Made by a program: the position numbers and the translations under genes
The notes under the pieces: model-generated
What the model was told of the DNA's origin: nothing
Database searches by the model: none
What the model saw: only the letters and a program-made list of their open reading frames with translations
Assembly: GCA_013416795.1 (NCBI GenBank)
Contig: RQSC01000842.1
Location: 1-36,726, forward strand
Direction of reading: 5' to 3'
From: Prasinococcaceae sp. CCMP 1430
Lineage: Eukaryota; Prasinodermophyta; Palmophyllophyceae; Prasinococcales; Prasinococcaceae
Length of the DNA: 36,726 nucleotides
Shown here: one piece after another, positions 3 through 13,916 of the stretch
Layout: each line of letters opens with the position of its first letter
Numbering within the stretch: the first letter of the stretch is position 1

Positions 3-3000
3 TGCTCCCGCCTCCCGCGGCGCGCGAGCGCCGCACGCGACGAGCGCCGCGCGGCGGCGGGCGGCAAGCGCTTCCGCGAGGTCGCGGCAGAGCTCGGCGT
101 GGACGCGTGGCAGCGCTTCACGTCGGTGGCGCCCCCACAGTGCCCGCACGCGCAGACCTCGTTTCGCGACGGCAAGCTCGCGCGTGTCGAGGGGGTCTTC
201 TGCGAGGGCGTGCTATTCAGCGGCGGCGTGGCGACGGGCGACGTCGACGGCGACGGCGTGGATGACCTCGTAATGACGCGCTACGACGACAGCCCGGTGC
301 TCTTCCGCGGCACGCGCGACGGCGGCTTCGAGGACGCCTCGGAGGGGGCGGGACTCGTGGGCGTCGCCGGGCACACAAACGGGGCGCTGCTCTTCGACGC
401 CGACAACGACGGCGACCTCGACCTCTACATCACCACCGTGGGCAGCACGAGCGGGCACCTTTTCTTCGTCAACGACGGCGCGGGGCACTTCACTGAGGTC
501 GCGGAGGAGCGCGGCGTGATGCTGGCGACGCCCTACCCGAACAGCGGCACCAACCCCACCGCGGCAGACATCGACGGCGACGGCTTCCTCGACCTCCTCG
601 TGCCCGAATGGCTGCCCGACTTCAGCCGCACGCCTGAGTCCCCGCAGGTGACAGCCGCCATGGGGGGCTCGCGCCTGCTGCGCAACCGCGGCGCCGAGGG
701 CGACGCGTGCGGCCCCGCGCGCGACCAGAGCTGCGCGGGCCACTTCGTGGACGTGACGGTGAGCGCGGGCATCTCCCTCCCGCCGAACATCAATACGGAC
801 ACCGAGGGGTACGGCAAAGGCAACTACGACTTCCAGGCCGTGTGGCTCGACCAAAACGACGACGATCTCATCGACATGCTGATGGTCTCGGACTTCGGCG
901 GGTCGCGCGTGTGGATGAACGCCGGCAACGGGACCTTCGAGGACGCAGGGACGCCGGGGGGATGGATGGCGTACAGGCCCGACGCGATGGGGTCGGCGCT
1001 CGGCGACTTCACGGGCAACGGCAGGCTGGACGTGTTCCTGTCGGGCATCTACGACATAGACGAGCGCAAAGAACGCTCGCAGCTGATGCACGCGTTTGCG
1101 ATGGGTAACCTGCTGTGCATCGGCGAGCGCGGAGGGCAGAACAACTTCGAGGCGGACAGCCGCGAGACCGCGCGCCTGGGAATCAACCACGACTTCTGGG
1201 CATGGGGCTCCGCGTTCGTCGACCACGACAACTCGGGCGTGCTCTCGCTGGCCGTGACCAACGGCATGGACGTGCCAGGGATCACCGAGGACGACGGGCT
1301 GTACCTGAATCGCTCGGCGCACTTCTACGTGCGGGAGACCGCGGAGCCGACGTCGCCGCTTGCCGACCAGGGGCCGGGCGTGGGGTTCGCGCCTCGCACG
1401 GAAGGGCGCGCGCTGCTCACGTGGGACTTTGACGACGACGGCGCCATTGACATGGTGCACACCGGCAACAAGGCCAGGATGGAGTTGTATCGCAACGAGG
1501 GCGAGGCTGCCGGCCTGGAGCATGGAGCGTGGCTCCGCGTGAGCGTCAAGGAGCCACCGGCCCGCGGAGGCCGCGACTCGCTGGGCGCGCGCGTGCGCGT
1601 GCAGCTCGTCGGCGACGGCGAGTGGCGCCTCGGCTCCATCGGGCCGAAGGAGGGCTACCTTGCCAACGGCATGGTCGACGCGCACTTCGGCCTCGGCGAC
1701 GTTTCTACCGAGACGCCCGTGCACGCTGTGGAGGTGCGCTGGCCGGCGACGGGCAACGAGATGGTCCTTTACAACGTCTCACACAGCCGAACGCTGGTGG
1801 TGACGTCCCCCGCGGGATTCGAGGAGCGGGTGGTCATTGACTTTGCCTCGCAGGTGGATCGGTGCGCGCGCGCCACGATCGAGGCGATCACGCAGCCCGA
1901 GGCGGGAGGGGGCTCGCTTGTGCTCGAGCCATCGAGGCGCTCCATCCGTTACTATCCGCCCGCGCTTGCGCCCGGCACGAAGGCGACGCACAACTTCACG
2001 TACGTGCTCGGCGACGGCCTGGGTGGCACGTCCGAGGCCACGGTGACCCTGGCGCTCAGCGCATCGGAGGTGGCGTCCGGCGGCGAGGCGCCAACGAAAG
2101 GGTACGCGCCCTTCGACGGCCACGGCAACAACGTCGCGAACCCGACGCTCGGCTGCCCCTTCGCCCCCATGCTGCGCAGGGCCGGCTACGATTATGCCGA
2201 CGGCGTCGACGCCGCCGCCGGTCTGAATCGGCCGAGCGCTCGGCTCGTGTCCAACGCGCTGTGCCGGCAGGTCGGTAGTATGCCAGGCAGAGCGCGGCTG
2301 AACGACCTGCACACCAACTTCGGTCAGCTACTTGCGCACGACCTCGACTTCTCGACGCCCTTTGCCAACGCCAAGGTCGAGAGCAACCTCCCCATCGACG
2401 TCCCTGCTGGCGACCCGTGGTTCGACAGCTCCGCGGCGGGAGAGAAGACACTGCGCTTCAAGCGCAGCGGCGTCGTGGCGGGCACTGGCGCCAACTTCGA
2501 GATCCCACGCGAGCAATTCAACAAGGTGACATCGTTCCTGGATCTCTCGCAGGTGTACGGCTCGGACGCGACGCGCGCGGGAGCGCAGCGCGAGCGGAAG
2601 GGCGGCCGTTTGCTCATGGCCAGCGACGGGCTCCTGCCGCTCAACACGCTCGGGGTGCCGAATGCCAACCCGCTTGACAGGCCTCGCGAGGAGCTCTTCG
2701 TCTCCGGCGACAATCGGGCGAATGTGCAGCCGGGACTCTTGGTGCTGCACACGCTGTGGCACCGCGAACACAACGCCAATGCGGACGAGCTCGCGGCAGA
2801 GCTCGTCGAGGGACGCGCGGCGCGTGGCGACGCGCGAGGGGCTACCCTCACGGCCGAGGATGACGAGTCGCTCTTCCTGCGCGCGAGAGCCCTGACGATG
2901 GCGAAGTGGCAGGCCATCGTGGTGTACGAGTATCTGCCGCTCCTCCTGGGTGTGCGCTCGCTGGGCCCGTATGGCGGCTACAACGCCAGCGCGCATCCGG

Positions 3001-3887
3001 GCGTCAGCAACGAGTTCGCGACGGCGGCATTCCGCTACGGCCACTCTGCGGTGGCGGACGTGCTGCTGCGCCTGGACGAGCGTGGCGAAGAGCACGCGGC
3101 GGGCCACCTGCTCCTTCGCGATGCCTACTTCACGCCGGGCCGCGTGCGCGTCGAGGGCGGCATCGAGCCGCTGGCGCGTGGCATGCTCGCCCAGCCGGCG
3201 CAGGAGATTGACACGCGCATGGTGGAAGGCCTGCGCAACTTCCTCTTCGGCACATCGCGCGACGGCCTCGACTTGTGCGCGGTCAACATCCAGCGAGGGC
3301 GTGACCACGGCCTGGCCGACTTCAACAGCGCGAGGGAGGCGTACGGGCTCCCGCGCGTGCGCGACTTCGCGGAGGTGACGCCCGACGCGACCGTGCGCGC
3401 GCACCTCGAGGCGTTGTATGAGTCGGTCGACGACGTGGACCTGTTCGTCGCGGGGCTTGCCGAGCGCCACGTGAGGGGCGGCGCGCTGGGCGAGACGTTC
3501 GCCGCCATCATCGCCGAGCAGTTCGAGCGCACGCGCGCGGCGGATCGCTTCTGGTTCGAGAACGCAGACACGGCCCCCTTCCCCGAGCGCATTCCCGAGC
3601 TGCGCGCGACGCGCATCTGTGACATTCTCCAGAGGAACGCCCCCGGTGTGCGGTGCCCCGACGGTGGGTCCGCCTTCGTGCTCGATGCCGACGTCGGGGG
3701 CGATGGCGGCGACGGCGGCGGGGTCGAGTACGGCGGCGCTGTCGTTGCACTCGTTGGCGCTGGCAGCGCCCTCGGAGGCGCCGGCGTGGCGCTGCTGATG
3801 ACCCTGGCGGCGAGGCGTGCGGCAGCTTCAAGAGGAGGAGGGCGGCCGTACAAGCACGCCGCCCAGGCGAATGGGGGCACTCTGTAG
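3..3887 (+). CDS. FG-GAP/UnbV propeller fused to animal-type haem peroxidase, C-terminal membrane anchor (5' partial)
   Basis: The frame is open from the window edge with no ATG before the first repeats, so the 5' end lies outside or in an upstream exon. Seen in order: seven FG-GAP/VCBS-type calcium motifs such as DVDGDGVDD, DADNDGDLD and DFDDDGAID (about nt 240-1460); an ASPIC/UnbV segment (about 1570-1800); a bacterial Ig/cadherin-like segment (about 1855-2070, YVLGDGLGGTSEATVT); then an animal haem peroxidase domain (about 2090-3650). Peroxidase hallmarks are the distal His in LLAHDLDFS (codon 2337-2339), SFLDLSQVYGSD, HTLWHREHN, the proximal His in FRYGHSAV (codon 3042-3044) and NIQRGRDHGL. 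A hydrophobic segment (about 3723-3810) and a basic tail follow, suggesting a type I cell-surface protein with an extracellular peroxidase. Peroxidases of this family oxidise halides or phenolics with H2O2; the substrate here is unknown. The coding stretch has no intron. Confidence 0.9.
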   Translation, partial: CSRLPRRASAARDERRAAAGGKRFREVAAELGVDAWQRFTSVAPPQCPHAQTSFRDGKLARVEGVFCEGVLFSGGVATGDVDGDGVDDLVMTRYDDSPVLFRGTRDGGFEDASEGAGLVGVAGHTNGALLFDADNDGDLDLYITTVGSTSGHLFFVNDGAGHFTEVAEERGVMLATPYPNSGTNPTAADIDGDGFLDLLVPEWLPDFSRTPESPQVTAAMGGSRLLRNRGAEGDACGPARDQSCAGHFVDVTVSAGISLPPNINTDTEGYGKGNYDFQAVWLDQNDDDLIDMLMVSDFGGSRVWMNAGNGTFEDAGTPGGWMAYRPDAMGSALGDFTGNGRLDVFLSGIYDIDERKERSQLMHAFAMGNLLCIGERGGQNNFEADSRETARLGINHDFWAWGSAFVDHDNSGVLSLAVTNGMDVPGITEDDGLYLNRSAHFYVRETAEPTSPLADQGPGVGFAPRTEGRALLTWDFDDDGAIDMVHTGNKARMELYRNEGEAAGLEHGAWLRVSVKEPPARGGRDSLGARVRVQLVGDGEWRLGSIGPKEGYLANGMVDAHFGLGDVSTETPVHAVEVRWPATGNEMVLYNVSHSRTLVVTSPAGFEERVVIDFASQVDRCARATIEAITQPEAGGGSLVLEPSRRSIRYYPPALAPGTKATHNFTYVLGDGLGGTSEATVTLALSASEVASGGEAPTKGYAPFDGHGNNVANPTLGCPFAPMLRRAGYDYADGVDAAAGLNRPSARLVSNALCRQVGSMPGRARLNDLHTNFGQLLAHDLDFSTPFANAKVESNLPIDVPAGDPWFDSSAAGEKTLRFKRSGVVAGTGANFEIPREQFNKVTSFLDLSQVYGSDATRAGAQRERKGGRLLMASDGLLPLNTLGVPNANPLDRPREELFVSGDNRANVQPGLLVLHTLWHREHNANADELAAELVEGRAARGDARGATLTAEDDESLFLRARALTMAKWQAIVVYEYLPLLLGVRSLGPYGGYNASAHPGVSNEFATAAFRYGHSAVADVLLRLDERGEEHAAGHLLLRDAYFTPGRVRVEGGIEPLARGMLAQPAQEIDTRMVEGLRNFLFGTSRDGLDLCAVNIQRGRDHGLADFNSAREAYGLPRVRDFAEVTPDATVRAHLEALYESVDDVDLFVAGLAERHVRGGALGETFAAIIAEQFERTRAADRFWFENADTAPFPERIPELRATRICDILQRNAPGVRCPDGGSAFVLDADVGGDGGDGGGVEYGGAVVALVGAGSALGGAGVALLMTLAARRAAASRGGGRPYKHAAQANGGTL

Positions 3888-4038: not shown

Positions 4039-4056
4039 CCCCCCCCCCCCCCCCCC

Positions 4057-4090
<34 letters not shown>
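4039..4090. repeat. Homopolymer pair: about 20 C followed directly by about 32 G
   Basis: A run of C (4039-4058) abuts a run of G (4059-4090), making a perfect loopless inverted repeat. It sits in the 698-bp gap between the convergent peroxidase and APEM9-like genes. The strand could fold as a hairpin, or the G run as a quadruplex. Equally it may be an assembly or polymerase artefact, since exact lengths of such runs are unreliable. The rest of the gap (3888-4585) is low-complexity GC-rich DNA in which I see no gene. Confidence 0.9.
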
Positions 4091-5575: not shown

Positions 5576-6473
5576 CGCCGCGTCGATGCTCTCACCGAAC
5601 TCCTTGCGGAANACACGCGCGCGCCCCGCGCGTCGCGCCGCGCCGCCGCGCCCGGATGCGTTTCGACCTCGCGGTCCGCCGGCGCCGGTCCGACCGGGTC
5701 TTCCTTCGGACGCAGGGGGGGCATCCCAGGCGCACGACCGGGGATCTCCCGCGATGGAAGCGCGTCCCAGGGTTCGTTCGGCGCGCGTCCCTGGTCTGCG
5801 GAGCCGACGGCGTCGCGGCGGCGGCGCGCTCGCGCGCGCTGCGCTGCGCGCGCGCCCGAAAGCCCTCCTCGCACCCATCACCACACAAGGGGAGTTCGGG
5901 AAGACGCGCGGGGTCTCTCTCTGTCCGTGGTGTCTGTGTTGAGAGGAGCGCAGGACTGTGTGCACACGTGCCGTGACGGAACCGTGGGCCGCTTCCTCCT
6001 CGCGCTTCGTCTCGGTCTCTGCCCTTCCATCGAGTTCCCCAAGGCGCACGCCTCGGCAGGGTGAGTCGGCACCGCAGCTGGGGAGTCGACTGCCCGCCAG
6101 AGCACGCGCGGAGCGGCCCATCACCGCGGCCTTGTTCGGATGGACCCATCGCACGCAGCATTCACACCGCACCTCTCTTGCTGGCGAAGGTGCCGGCTGC
6201 GCGCCGCGCTCTTGCGAAGCCGCGGGTGAGAAGCGCGCAGCCGCTCGCAGCTGCGACCCGTGCGACCCGTGCGACCTTGCGACAGCGCGAGGTTGAGGTT
6301 GTCATTTAGGGTTTATCCGCGGGTGCGACCGGGCCGCGAGGACAGTCGCGGCGACCCCGTCGTTTTTGTGGTAAAAGAAGTTCTGTGTTTTGCGGAATTT
6401 GGCATTGTCTCTGCGGACTCTGGTTATTTGGCCCGGCGCAGAGCAGGGTTTCCGTTCGGGCGCATGGCGTTTG
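5576..6473. promoter_or_regulatory. Divergent promoter region with a perfect telo-box at 6305-6315
   Basis: This stretch separates the head-to-head APEM9-like (-) and DUF3007 (+) genes. The only clear motif is TTTAGGGTTTA at 6305-6315, whose complement contains the plant telo-box AAACCCTAA, about 160 bp before the DUF3007 ATG. In plants the telo-box is bound by Trb/PUR-type factors at promoters of growth and translation genes; use here is inference. The open frames running through this region look like GC-rich noise. Confidence 0.5.
5612..5612. other. Ambiguous base N at the 5' end of the APEM9-like gene
   Basis: A single N interrupts an otherwise open minus-strand frame just upstream of the first usable ATG. 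It may be a collapsed gap of unknown size, so the N-terminus of the gene to its left is uncertain. Confidence 0.9.
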
Positions 6474-6920
6474 ATGTGGGCGCGCGAGCGGCGCGAGCAC
6501 GGGGCGCCACGGCGGCGCGGCGCGCGACCGCGGCGCGCGGCGGCGCGCGCCGAGGGCGGTGCCGACGGCGCGGAGCAGCAGGAGGGGAGGAAGTTCGTGC
6601 AGAACACCGAGTTCGGGCGCTCGCGCAAGGACGTGCTGCTCATCTGCGCGGCGCTCTTCGTGCTGCCGTTCGGCCTGCGCTCGGCGCTTGAGGCCGCGGG
6701 CATGTCGCACCTGCGCGCGGGCTCGACGAGCGTGGCCCTCTTCATGGTGGTGGTCATGCTCGGCTACACGAGCACGTACCTCTTCCGTGTGGGGCGCAAG
6801 GAAATGACGTACATCACGCAGCTCAAGGAGTACGAGGAGGCCGTCATGGAGAAGCGCCTCGAGGAGATGCCCAGCGCCGAGGTCGAGAAGCTGCTGGAAG
6901 AGCTCTCAGGGGACAAGTGA
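6474..6920 (+). CDS. DUF3007-family plastid membrane protein
   Basis: The conserved part starts at about nt 6613 (EFGRSRKDVLL) and has two hydrophobic segments (LICAALFVLPFGL and SVALFMVVVMLGYTSTYLF). The family signature follows: YLFRVGRKEMTY, then QLKEYEEAVMEKRLEEM and an acidic end. This is the cyanobacterial/plastid DUF3007 pattern, an uncharacterised thylakoid-type membrane protein with the C-terminal helix on one side. The start is uncertain. The ATG at 6474 is in frame and gives 148 aa with an Arg/Ala-rich leader. An ATG ten bases earlier (6464) in another frame also opens an Ala/Arg/Thr-rich transit-peptide-like leader (MAFDVGARAARARG), so either an unseen splice or a one-base error may hide the real leader. 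No typical ER signal peptide is visible. Confidence 0.8.
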   Translation: MWARERREHGAPRRRGARPRRAAARAEGGADGAEQQEGRKFVQNTEFGRSRKDVLLICAALFVLPFGLRSALEAAGMSHLRAGSTSVALFMVVVMLGYTSTYLFRVGRKEMTYITQLKEYEEAVMEKRLEEMPSAEVEKLLEELSGDK

Positions 6921-7232: not shown

Positions 7233-9045
7233 TCACCCGGACCCGGCCATCTCCTCGAGCTGCAGGGCTCGCTGGTCGGCCTTGGCGCGGTTCTGTTTGC
7301 GGCGCGCGCGCCGGCCGGGCTTGCCGCTGCTGCCCGGCGTGTGCACGTGCTGCGGCGGCGACGCGCCGAAGACCTGCGCGCGCGGTGTGTGGCACATGAT
7401 GGCAGCGCGTGAGGCGCGTCAGCGGGCGGGCGCGTACGGGCGTCCATGCGAGCGCGCGAGGGCGTCGCCAGGCCGATGCAGCCAGCGCGCACGTGCGCGC
7501 GCCGCCCACCTTGTCCGATGGCCCGCTGTTGCGCCTCCCCCATCCCCCGGCCGCATTGGGCGACGTCCCAAGGTAGCCCGCACTGAGCGCGGGCGACTTG
7601 CTGAGCTTGCCGCCGCTATACTTTGGCGAGCGCGCGTGCGCGCTGCTGCCCGCGCCGCTGCTGCCCGAGCCGCCCGCGCCGTTCCTGCCCCTGCGTGGGA
7701 CGGCCGACATGCGGCCGGCCTGCACGTAGCCGCCCGCGCCGAAGCGGCGGTTTCCCAGCGTGATTTGGTTGCGCACCTTGTGGCTCGCGCGATAGCCACA
7801 GTCGTCGTCGTAGTCGCAGTCCAGGTCCCACTGGCACTCGTCGTCGTGGTCGTCGAAGCTGGTGTTGGGCGACGCGCAGTGGTCCTCGGCGCCGCGCAGA
7901 GCCTGCTTGCCGCGCACGAACCATGAGGCGCGCAACAAGAGCGTCACCGGCTCCTCGCCGAGCTCGTCCCCAACGGAGCCGTCCAGCGCGCGCCGGGTGA
8001 GCATGTATTCGAAAGGCACCTTGCAGGTCGGGCAAGGCACCTGCGCGTCGTTGTTGTCCCCTGCCTTGAAGCGCGCCCAGTCGAGGATGCAGCCGATGCA
8101 GTATGCGTGCATGCATCCCTTGACCAGCGAAAGCTCCTCGTATGGCACCTCATCGAGGCAAACCGCGCAAAGCACAGCGTCGTCCTCCTCTTCCGGCGCC
8201 TCGGGCGGCCCTTCGGGCAGGGGCGCCTTGCCCTTGCCGACGAGCGCATCCTCCGCCGGGGCGTATTCCGAAGACGGCGACACGCTGAGTGGCGAGCTGC
8301 TGCCGTGCATTTCCGCCTCTGCGTCGGCCGCTGCGTCGGGGCGCGCGTCCATGTCCACCGCCCACTCGTCGTCGTCGGAATGCGCAAACATGGCGTCGTC
8401 GGCGCCCCAGCCGCACAGCGGGTCAGCGGCGGGCGGCGGGGTTTGAAGCTCCTCGCCGTAGTCGAAAGGCAGCCAGCCGTCGTCGCTGGCATTGCCATCG
8501 CAGCGAACGCCTGGCGCATGGTCGTCCTCGGCCGCCTTGCTCTTGCCCTTGCCCTTGTCCGCCGCTGCCGCATCGGGCGAGCCCTCACGCGCAAGCACGA
8601 AGGGGGGGGTGGAGGGCGTCGCCACGGGCATAGCCGCTGCCGCTGTAGGCGGCGTCGCCGGACACGCCGCCGCTGCCACTGAAGGCGCCGCCGCTGAGGG
8701 AGACGACGCCGTCCCTGCCACAGCCGCGGCCGCCGTGGGCCACGCTTCCACATCAACCACCGTGCCACCCACCTCGGGGAGCGCGCCGTCCGCCTGGGGC
8801 GCCTTGCGCGGCACGCCCCACCCTCCCCACGCGGGTGCGGGGCGCCCGGCCAGCGTCGAGCGCTCGCCGAGCGCAGGCCAACAGCTGCTGCCCCCGGCGG
8901 CGCTTGCGGGCTCGGGCGCGGCCGCTGCCGCCAGGTGGAAGAGGCGCTCTCCATGCGGCGTGGGGAAGAGCTCCACACCCACGCGCCCGCCGTCCACCAT
9001 CAGGCACACCACCACGGCGAGCGCGCCGCCGTCCGCGTGCGACAT
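7233..9045 (-). CDS. RING-HC finger protein (probable E3 ubiquitin ligase), two exons
   Basis: Exon 1 runs 9045-7510 and exon 2 7373-7233, with a 136-nt GT-AG intron (7509-7374, gtgggc...gcgcag) in phase 0; together 558 aa. The second exon (VFGASPPQHVH, then GRRARRKQNRAKADQRALQL and stop) is inferred from phase and coding character. The N-terminal half is Ala/Pro/acidic low complexity. A C3HC4 RING follows: CAVCLDEV, CMHAYCIGC and CPTC, with 13 residues between the first two pairs. After it comes an acidic stretch rich in Asp and the motif LGNRRFGAGGYVQAGR, which matches a plant RING family ending in LGNRRWGDNGYVRAGR. This supports a cytosolic or nuclear ubiquitin ligase; substrates are unknown. 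The start is the first ATG before the conserved MSHADGGALAVVV. It is head-to-head with the UPF0114 gene. Confidence 0.82.
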
Positions 9046-9341
9046 CGCTCGCGCCCGCGCCCGCACGAGCGTTCCGGAGCTCGAGGCAAACCGCCGCGCA
9101 CGCTCGTCAAGCCCCCTTCCCCTACTCACCCCCCCTTTCTCTCCGCGCAGCTGCGCGCCTCGCCCGGGCGGGTGACCTGCCGCGCGCGCGCGCTCGCGCG
9201 CGCGCCCCAGCGAGCGGCCACAGCTCCCCGCTCCCCCCAGGGGAGCCGGCCGGCCGCGGGTGCGGAGAGGCCGAGGGGAAAGCCGGAGGGACCGCGCCAC
9301 GAGCGGCAGAACGGGCGTCTGGAAAGGTCGAGGATTGCTCG

Positions 9342-9369
<28 letters not shown>
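9342..9369. repeat. Poly-C run of about 28 bases
   Basis: An uninterrupted C tract in the divergent promoter between the RING (-) and UPF0114 (+) genes, about 300 bp upstream of the RING ATG. On the minus strand it is a G run able to form a quadruplex. Its length may be inexact in the assembly. Confidence 0.9.
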
Positions 9370-10024: not shown

Positions 10025-10846
10025 ATGGCGGCGCCCGTTGCGTGCGGCTGGTCGCTAGCTGCCGGCCACGTGCGGCCGACTGCGCTGCGGGGCCGCGTGC
10101 TGCGGCTGCGGCGTCGGTGCGTACCGAGGGCCTCGGCGAGCTCCGACCAAGAGCCTCGGGACGGCCGCGGCGGGCCCGAGGGCGCGCGCGGTGGGGCGGC
10201 GAAGCAACTTACCAAGCGCAACGTGGAGCGAGTGCTAGTCTCCTCCCGCCTCATTGTGCTCCTCGGGGTGTTTCCAACGTTGTGCGCGAGTGCCCTGGAG
10301 TTTTTGAGCGGCGGTCGGACCGTGTTTTTGTCCGCGTCAGATCTGTTCCTCGAGCCTCCCGAGAGCGCCGAGGCGCTGAGCGCCGCCGCGGTGTCCGCGG
10401 TCGACCAATTTCTGGTGAGCGCATGCGTGGTGCCGGTGGATCGCGACTTCTAGGTGTCCACCTGTTTGACTGCGAACTGACTGCGAACTGACTGAGTACA
10501 TGCGCGTCCATCGCCCGCGCCCACACCACTGCCGCAGCTTGGAACGGTGCTGTACATCTTCGCGGCAGGCGTGTACGAGATCTTCGTGTCTCCGCTGACA
10601 GACGATGTCCTTGGGAGCGCTGCCAGTGCGCCGTGGATTGGTGAGAGCAAGACCACGCTCGAAAATCTCAAGCTGCGTCTCGGGCAAGTCATCGTGGTCA
10701 TTCTGCTAGTCAGAATTGTGGACGGCGCCAAGGCAGTGACGATCGAGAGCACGCTCGATTTGGTCCTCCTTGCGCTGGCGGCAGCGCTGGGCTCGCTCGC
10801 GCTTCGCCTCTCCATCGGCGACTACGTCGACTCCCCAGACCGCTAA
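10025..10846 (+). CDS. UPF0114 (YqhA-type) membrane protein, probably organelle-targeted, two exons
   Basis: Exon 1 10025-10414 and exon 2 10538-10846, joined by a 123-nt GT-AG intron (gtgagc...gccgcag) in phase 0; 232 aa. The first 45 residues are Arg/Ala/Ser-rich without acidic residues (ending PRASASSD), like a plastid transit peptide. The mature part begins with VERVLVSSRLIVLLGVFPTL, and across the intron reads VDQFLLGTVLYIFAAGVYE. It continues with a charged loop, LKLRLGQVIVVILLVRIVD, and a final helix ALAAALGSLALRL. This order of three to four membrane helices is that of UPF0114, known in bacteria and in plant plastids but without an assigned function. Restoration of the conserved second helix across the junction strongly supports the splice. 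It is head-to-head with the RING gene and convergent with HSP20 (231 bp between stops). Confidence 0.85.
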
Positions 10847-12019: not shown

Positions 12020-12055
12020 ATCAACGCGGGCGTGAGCGTCTTTGGGGTTTTGGTG

Positions 12056-12064
12056 TTAGGGTTT
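12056..12064. promoter_or_regulatory. Telo-box (AAACCCTAA on the minus strand)
   Basis: TTAGGGTTT on the plus strand is an exact telo-box complement, 263 bp upstream of the HSP20 ATG and preceded by a GGGGTTTT tract at about 12044. It is a second perfect match to the plant motif in this window. Confidence 0.5.
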
Positions 12065-12363: not shown

Positions 12364-13338
12364 CTAGGCGCCGAGGTCCGCTGTGTCGTCCAGCATGCTG
12401 CTGTCGTGGCGTCTGTTGGCGACGGGGGGCAGCGCGTCTGCTGCCTGCGGCTTCACCTGCGACGCGCGCGGTAAGTCCCCGCCGTTGCCGAGCTCCAGTT
12501 CGACGTGGTCGTCCTGGACGTCGTCGAGCAGCGGCTTGAACAGCGGCGCGCCCTCCTTCTCGCGCTTCACCATGAAGGTAGCGAACGCCACGGCCACCGC
12601 GGCGACAATCGCGGCAATGACGCCGATCACCACAGCGGCCGTGCTGTCGCCGCCGCCACCATCCGCGCCTTCGTCCGGCAAGAACAGCGCGGTGGCCTTC
12701 TCGCAGTGCCGACCGGTGTACCCATCAACGCAGTCGCACTCGCTCTTGCCCCGGCATCCCAGGCTCGAGTCGGCCATGCAGTAGTGTTTGATGGTGTCGT
12801 ACTTGGTCTTCTCGCATATGACAATCTCGTGCTCGCAGTGCGCACCGGTGAAGCCCTCGGGGCAGCTGCAGCTGATGGCCGCATTGCACGCCCTTGTGTC
12901 GTACGTCCCCCCGTGGCAGAAGTACATGCCCGTGCGCGCGGGGTGCGTCTTGTCCTCCTTGCACACCCCACCGCCATTGTTGCACTCCGTCTCACCGTTG
13001 CCGTGCACCCACGCGGTGCCGCGCGTCGAGCACGTGGCCCCATTGTCCAGACACCACACTCCCGTGCCGCAGTCGACGGTCGGTACCTCGCACTCGGCGC
13101 CAGTGTAGGTCGGGCCGAGCGCCCAGTGCGTGTTGCAGATGCACCGGGGAGCGCCGTCGGGTCCGGTGCCGCACGCCGTGCCCTCGTCGGTGTGTTGGCA
13201 CACGAGGCCCTCGCCGCCGCAGGCCACGCTCGCGGCAAACGCAGGGGGCGCGGCGCAGACTAGGGCTCCTGCGACTGCAGCGGCGGCGGCCACCGCGAGC
13301 ACCCCGCGTCCCCGCGCCGTCCGGCTGGACCGCGCCAT
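12364..13338 (-). CDS. EGF-like type I membrane protein
   Basis: 324 aa, single exon, from ATG 13338. A signal peptide is clear (Arg-rich n-region, GVLAVAAAAAVAGALVC, AFA cleavage context near residue 36). The ectodomain is Cys-rich with several EGF-like modules; the two best end CSCPEGFTGAHC and CDCVDGYTGRHC, with less regular ones before them (GLVCQHTDEGTACG; NGATCSTRGTAW). A transmembrane helix (TAAVVIGVIAAIVAAVAVAF) lies at about residues 233-255, with stop-transfer KREKEG and a 65-residue acidic cytoplasmic tail that has no kinase or recognisable domain. It may be a cell-surface adhesion or receptor-like protein. I do not recognise a named orthologue. Confidence 0.85.
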   Translation of the reverse strand: MARSSRTARGRGVLAVAAAAAVAGALVCAAPPAFAASVACGGEGLVCQHTDEGTACGTGPDGAPRCICNTHWALGPTYTGAECEVPTVDCGTGVWCLDNGATCSTRGTAWVHGNGETECNNGGGVCKEDKTHPARTGMYFCHGGTYDTRACNAAISCSCPEGFTGAHCEHEIVICEKTKYDTIKHYCMADSSLGCRGKSECDCVDGYTGRHCEKATALFLPDEGADGGGGDSTAAVVIGVIAAIVAAVAVAFATFMVKREKEGAPLFKPLLDDVQDDHVELELGNGGDLPRASQVKPQAADALPPVANRRHDSSMLDDTADLGA

Positions 13339-13458
13339 GGTGTACCTGTGGGCAGCCCCCTCTTCTGCGGCCGACGGCTCGACGGCGGGCGCGCGCGTTG
13401 GCGCTGACGGCCGTGCCCCGCCCACCCTGCGCAGCCGGCGAGGTGTGGAGCACCCCTT

Positions 13459-13479
13459 TCTCTCTCTCTCTCTCTCTCT
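13459..13479. repeat. (TC)10 microsatellite
   Basis: A TC run (GA on the coding strand) about 120 bp upstream of the EGF-like gene's ATG, probably in its promoter or 5' UTR. Alternating CG/CA-rich sequence follows to about 13600. The rest of the 875-bp gap 13339-14213 holds no gene that I can see. Confidence 0.85.
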
Positions 13480-13916
13480 GTGCCTCTCTTCCGCACATGC
13501 ATTGGCCTTGGCACTCCTCTCTCGCGCGTTCGCGCGCGCACGCGCATATGCGCGCGCCCGCGCGCGCACACGCGCGCGCGCGCTGTGGCCACGCGCGCGC
13601 GCGCGCTATCGCCGCCGCGATTCCGATTCTCTCTCGCGCGCCCACCCTCCCCTCACGTCTATCCAATCCCCAGCTAAATTCAAAAAGTGCGCCAATCAAT
13701 CGACGGTGCGCACGTCCTCGATCGATGGATTGATTTGATTGATGCGCCCAGCCAACCAATGTCATTTGACCTATCGCAGGGGCGCCTCGACCGGCAGAGA
13801 GATCCGCATCTCCACAGCTCAGCAGCGCTTCATCGCGTTGACTCTCGCGGCAGCGAGACCGTCAATCGAAGCAAACCTGTTGTCGCCAAGAACGACAGTT
13901 GCGGTAGATTCGAGCT

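Follow-up and report, generated by a model that had tools for sequence, protein, structure and literature searches.

A CRTAC1-like propeller and an animal-type haem peroxidase without haem-ester residues in one reading frame of Prasinococcaceae sp. CCMP 1430

Several animal-type haem peroxidases with different haem linkages have been described. CyanoPOX (PDB 8s6c), a lactoperoxidase-like enzyme of cyanobacteria, was crystallised with non-covalent haem and is active on iodide and aromatics (PMC11776367). The secreted, peroxinectin-like DdPoxA of Dictyostelium (PDB 6erc), which has a single haem ester bond, is fast on iodide and thiocyanate, reacts with bromide at 15 M-1 s-1 and does not oxidise chloride, and the number of haem ester bonds in this superfamily correlates with the Fe(III)/Fe(II) potential (PMC5787809). 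Calcium-blade propellers, on the other side, are known in extracellular proteins such as integrins (PMC3123361). Here we describe a gene of Prasinococcaceae sp. CCMP 1430, at positions 3-3887 (+) of a 36,726-base stretch of DNA (the window), which carries a CRTAC1-like propeller, an ASPIC domain, an immunoglobulin (Ig)-like linker, an animal-type haem peroxidase and a putative membrane anchor in one frame. The window takes in the whole of contig C130, one of the 145 contigs in which this 24.5 Mb genome is assembled.

The encoded protein resembles each of the described systems in part. With CyanoPOX it shares a ~44% identical peroxidase domain, the same fold, the catalytic residues and the distal calcium site; however, CyanoPOX keeps Asp80 and Glu202 (Asp94 and Glu242 of MPO), and the solved CyanoPOX protein has no propeller. 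DdPoxA, a protist member of the same superfamily with 37% identity, has lost one ester residue (Asp to Ile) but keeps the ester Glu and has neither propeller nor anchor, whereas neither ester residue is left in the window protein. The FG-GAP calcium propeller followed by ASPIC is shared with CRTAC1 and with bacterial CRTAC1-family proteins (up to 41% identical), but no peroxidase was found in the relatives examined, and three calcium blades are degenerate in the window protein. Peroxidasins are likewise extracellular, combine an animal-type peroxidase with Ig segments in a multidomain protein and, in their short forms, lack the ester residues, but they carry leucine-rich repeat, Ig and VWC modules instead of the FG-GAP/ASPIC propeller (PMC3533774). 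DUOX proteins have a membrane-linked peroxidase domain of this type, and a DUOX-like frame exists in the same genome; unlike DUOX, the window protein lacks EF-hands and the NADPH-oxidase half, and both of its haem histidines are present.

The reading frame and its haem site

Translation gave a single uninterrupted frame of 1294 residues with a TAG stop, whose 5′ end is left open by the start of the window inside the gene. A DNA search of the genome's contigs found no other copy of, or contig overlapping, the first 1200 bases of the window. An earlier note, made from the letters alone, had described one frame with seven FG-GAP motifs, UnbV/ASPIC, Ig-like and peroxidase segments and a C-terminal transmembrane helix; Pfam, pattern search and hydropathy confirmed these parts, the last of them as a hydrophobic segment, and Pfam placed FG-GAP_3, UnbV_ASPIC, Big_9 and An_peroxidase in that order. 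Guanine plus cytosine (GC) content of the window is 69%, and 90 frames of at least 150 residues were listed in it. Long open frames are cheap in GC-rich DNA, and GC was therefore examined by codon position. Per 100 codons it was 60-77% at first, 46-59% at second and 84-95% at third positions, steady over the whole frame, including the junction between propeller and peroxidase, and the two halves are alike in codon usage. Hence, together with the domain scores, this steadiness rules out a chance open frame, and the gene is real and intact save for its missing start.

The most telling new result is that both haem-ester residues are gone from an active site that is complete in all other respects. 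The peroxidase domain (residues 702-1215, positions 2106-3647) matched PF03098 with E 6.5e-136 and 454 bits, against a curated cut-off of 25, over model positions 2-521 of 530; its sequence match to CyanoPOX had E 1.2e-118. We aligned it with MPO, LPO, DdPoxA, CyanoPOX, human DUOX1, 33 bacterial domains and the other peroxidase of this genome, encoded on contig C38. The distal motif GQLLAHDLD (2322-2348) keeps Gln775, the distal His779 and the calcium ligand Asp780, and the distal calcium site TSFLDLS (2529-2549) keeps Thr843, Phe845, Asp847 and Ser849, four of four as in MPO. Catalytic Arg905 is kept in RANVQ (2715-2729), Arg1011 and the haem ligand His1014 in the proximal motif RYGH (3033-3044), and Asn1108 (3324-3326) is the hydrogen-bond partner of the proximal His. 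At the positions of Asp94 and Glu242, by contrast with these, stand Ala778 and Val908. Both ester residues are kept in 33 of 33 bacterial relatives, CyanoPOX, MPO and LPO; in human DUOX1 they are gone, along with the distal and proximal His. The position of Met243, which forms the sulfonium link in MPO, is occupied by Gln909, the same residue as in LPO and CyanoPOX. Thus the earlier description of a complete peroxidase with both haem His regions holds for His779 and His1014, and is refined by the absence of the two covalent-haem residues.

The full-length domain, with its distal Gln-His, Arg, proximal His-Asn and calcium site, places the protein in the PF03098 superfamily. It lacks the two ester residues that define chordate peroxidases (MPO, LPO, EPO and TPO; family 1), and KGD, the integrin-binding motif of peroxinectins (family 3), is absent from the translation. 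A single RGD tripeptide was considered as an integrin motif and rejected, as by our own estimate one occurrence is about the chance number for this composition. The Pfam scan of the whole frame showed no dockerin, as found in peroxidockerins (family 6), and none of the EF-hands and ferric-reductase/NADPH-oxidase half of DUOX. At the other end, the calcium propeller followed by an ASPIC domain places the protein in the CRTAC1/UnbV-ASPIC family.

Propeller, linker, C-terminal segment and predicted structures

The seven-bladed propeller occupies residues ~22-525 (positions 66-1577; Pfam FG-GAP_3, E 5e-26 in three stretches, and AlphaFold2 model). Pattern search and alignment gave seven calcium motifs, four of them canonical: DVDGDGVDD (motif 1, residues 80-88, positions 240-266), DADNDGDLD (motif 2, residues 132-140, 396-422), DIDGDGFLD (motif 3, residues 189-197, 567-593) and DFDDDGAID (motif 7, residues 475-483, 1425-1451). 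The other three are degenerate, namely DQNDDDLID with Gly replaced by Asp (motif 4, residues 283-291, 849-875), DFTGNGRLD (motif 5, residues 335-343, 1005-1031) and DHDNSGVLS with two Asp lost (motif 6, residues 407-415, 1221-1247). The following UnbV/ASPIC domain (residues 527-598, positions 1581-1796; PF07593, E 1.9e-8) is the strongest ASPIC match in the genome. The Ig-like linker (Big_9; residues 622-683, positions 1866-2051; PF17963, E 1.7e-5) is all-beta in the AlphaFold2 model, with a predicted local distance difference test score of about 60-77. Near the C-terminus, a transmembrane segment is predicted at residues ~1245-1270 (positions 3735-3812; mean Kyte-Doolittle value 2.01 for the best 19 residues); this 26-residue Gly/Ala/Val/Leu segment ends 24 residues before the C-terminus and is followed by Arg1271-Arg1272 and then a 22-residue basic tail. 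This arrangement suggests a membrane anchor, with a topology that we infer from the sequence.

Structure prediction, proposed in the earlier note as a check, led from the propeller to mouse CRTAC1 and from the peroxidase to CyanoPOX. A first AlphaFold2 model (residues 21-1220) was confident for the peroxidase domain and poor for the latter half of the propeller, probably owing to misalignment of single-part relatives, propeller or peroxidase, that had been aligned together. The best PDB match of the peroxidase fold was CyanoPOX (E 3.4e-44, template modelling (TM) score 0.89 by target length, 41% identity), followed by DdPoxA, MPO and LPO. A second model (residues 21-690), built with only propeller relatives in the alignment, reached a predicted TM score of 0.82. 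Its one clear match was mouse CRTAC1 (E 2.5e-26, TM score 0.71 by target length), and the runner-up was far behind at 8.9e-8.

Relatives, second peroxidase gene and genomic setting

A scan of a genome collection returned 80 loci, all of them propeller matches (Chloroflexota, Myxococcota, Acidobacteriota, Planctomycetota, Bacteroidota and others), and no peroxidase lay in the flanks of any of the 80. Whole-genome searches then covered 18 chosen genomes and six phylum samples (235, 301, 343, 199, 398 and 345 genomes), about 1,840 bacterial genomes altogether, with two or three candidates scored per genome in the bulk searches and with cyanobacteria and eukaryotic proteomes outside the sample. 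Both parts were found at 34-47% identity, with maxima of 47% for the peroxidase and 41% for the propeller, and no frame with both was found among these genomes. Plasmids matched single parts only, with no fusion, no viral relatives were found, and the open-access literature yielded no paper on this architecture. Each part is of a known kind, and their combination is new among the genomes searched. The architecture had been called unusual from the letters alone, and this stands as far as the bacterial search reaches.

Two side observations were made among the bacterial peroxidases. In a Planctomycetota-phylum genome, one frame (L129:1-3846) carries a vanadium-chloroperoxidase-like/PAP2 region, by weak Pfam matches, together with a haem peroxidase, that is, two unrelated haloperoxidase types within one protein. 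In peroxidase frames of two Chloroflexota-phylum genomes (L123 and L124), model positions 133-491 or 107-491 precede positions 15-122 or 1-110, an order that resembles a circular permutation of the haem peroxidase or a shifted tandem copy.

The placement of the peroxidase domain shifted with the rows in the tree. With an MPO and LPO outgroup it joined the bacterial set (100/100), and its position inside the set was not fixed. With DdPoxA, DUOX1 and the C38 protein added, 33 bacterial rows formed a clade (97/91), and the domain fell outside it with the long branches of the eukaryotes. The domain may thus derive from an older bacterial transfer or from ancient eukaryotic inheritance.

The only other An_peroxidase match in the genome is on contig C38 (L085:4049-8752). 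This frame contains a peroxidase, EF-hands and ferric-reductase helices, and its best PDB match is human DUOX1, in three collinear stretches; in the alignment it keeps the distal His, the proximal His and the ester Glu. The frame ends just past the helices, and a partial NAD-binding domain lies in another frame at L085 ~8688-9221 (E 0.00097). The flavin adenine dinucleotide (FAD) part is not visible, and a search of the genome for FAD domains gave no match anywhere, controls included. This gene has thus been broken or rearranged, or it is spliced or misassembled.

Neighbours of the window gene include a plastid-type DUF3007 frame (6390-6917) and a plastid-type UPF0114 gene (10025-10846) with a 123-nucleotide GT-AG intron at 10415-10537, read by eye; the spliced UPF0114 protein matches PF03350 with E 2e-20, and its N-terminal extension may serve as a plastid transit peptide. 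The contig also encodes HSP20, a RING protein and a DUF676 esterase. Since plastid-type genes, one of them intron-split, lie on the same contig, the contig is eukaryotic and probably from a green alga; the algal setting assumed in the earlier note is thus supported by DUF3007, the split UPF0114 and RING genes, and bacterial contamination is ruled out by the intron-bearing plastid-type neighbourhood.

Elsewhere on the contig, interstitial TTTAGGG-like motifs of the plant telomere type are enriched, at 6305, 12041-12064 and 19187 (4 matches against 0.16 expected), and add to the case for a green-algal origin. Long homopolymer C/G runs at ~4040-4090 and ~9343-9369 may be an assembly artefact or an unusual structure; a poly-C run directly followed by poly-G lies ~150 bases downstream of the peroxidase gene. 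The frame at 12364-13569 (-) is Cys-rich, with EGF-like-looking repeats and an apparent membrane segment, and had no Pfam match at E 0.001.

Proposed function, rival explanations and meaning

We consider it about an even chance that the window protein is a haem peroxidase of the lactoperoxidase/peroxinectin kind that is secreted and tethered to the membrane, with non-covalent haem and mild-oxidant chemistry. According to this model, the propeller, ASPIC and Ig segments would together serve as a rigid head for binding or adhesion, with the C-terminal helix tethering the protein at the outer surface. The haem would be bound through the proximal His1014-Asn1108 pair, and hydrogen peroxide (H2O2) would react with the help of His779, Arg905 and Gln775 to form compound I, with the distal calcium site stabilising the domain; these residues are present in the alignment, and the activity is conjectured from them. 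Because the equivalents of Asp94 and Glu242 are Ala and Val, the haem would be held non-covalently and its redox potential lowered. As ester-bond number is linked to potential and to the halides that can be oxidised (PMC5787809), iodide, thiocyanate and phenols or tyrosines are predicted as substrates, with bromide oxidised poorly and chloride not at all. The halide or phenol oxidation proposed earlier is thus plausible for iodide, thiocyanate and phenols, and the ester loss speaks against strong oxidation of chloride or bromide, hence also against broad halogenation. The enzyme would likely serve to produce an oxidant locally, which would keep bacteria away from the cell, or to cross-link polymers of the wall or mucilage.

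This proposal is supported by the domain calls, the CyanoPOX and CRTAC1 fold matches, the kept catalytic and calcium residues and the unbroken coding signal. Four observations weigh against it. The contig edge cuts the gene, so the N-terminus and any signal peptide are off the contig; blades 4-6 lack ligands that are retained in nearly all bacterial relatives (35 bacterial rows aligned); the C-terminal segment is Gly/Ala-rich and of moderate hydrophobicity; and the candidate source of H2O2, the DUOX-like gene, shows no FAD part in this assembly.

The same enzyme might serve mainly for oxidative cross-linking of wall or mucilage proteins by tyrosine or phenol coupling, instead of antimicrobial oxidant production. 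Animal peroxidasins and DUOX systems consolidate extracellular matrix (PMC3533774, PMC3591440), and a haem of low potential would be better suited to the one-electron oxidation of phenols than to the oxidation of halides. However, DdPoxA, whose haem chemistry is the closest to have been studied, limits the contamination of fruiting bodies by bacteria (PMC5787809), and we regard cross-linking as the main job as rather doubtful. Loss of both ester residues, shared with human DUOX1, and the long end branch of the domain in both trees could also indicate a structural relic, which like the peroxidase-homology domain of animal DUOX makes protein contacts and does not catalyse. DUOX1 has in addition lost its distal and proximal His, whereas here Gln, both His, Arg, Asn, the equivalent of Arg333 and the entire calcium site are intact, and ester modification is not needed for compound I formation (PMC5787809); a relic is thus unlikely.

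Two further explanations concern the gene itself. Propeller and peroxidase are separate in all bacteria examined, the contig begins inside the gene, and the single frame is known from DNA alone, all of which would fit two genes joined by assembly error, an unspliced intron or read-through. Yet frame and coding signal run unbroken through the Ig linker, which is recognisable as a domain in its own right and bridges both parts, and codon usage does not differ between the halves, which makes such a joining very improbable. More improbable still is bacterial contamination or a very recent bacterial transfer, to which the bacterial nearest sequences, the lack of a visible intron in the gene and its very high third-position GC could point. 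Against it stand the DUF3007, UPF0114 and RING neighbours, the low identities (at most 41% for the propeller and 47% for the peroxidase), the long-branched domain and the absence of the fusion from every bacterial relative examined.

That the C38 protein supplies H2O2 to the window enzyme is speculation. Combining both genes, we tentatively suggest, as a possibility we would not bet on, a surface-tethered peroxidase built by an algal lineage from a CRTAC1-type propeller and an LPO-type domain, with haem without covalent links, tuned to iodide, thiocyanate and phenols and paired with a DUOX-like protein that keeps its haem histidines. If true, the two proteins would be the plant-side equivalent of the pair of DUOX and peroxidase in animals. 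None of the sampled bacteria was found to join the two extracellular modules as the window frame does. A survey of NOX proteins found only RBOH or unclassified NOX-like proteins in green plants (PMC9421330); if the C38 gene is real, DUOX-like proteins occur outside animals, contrary to NOX surveys (PMC9421330, PMC9524095). Moreover, with an active site that is intact in every other respect, the window enzyme would offer a natural test of how important covalent haem links are in animal-type peroxidases.

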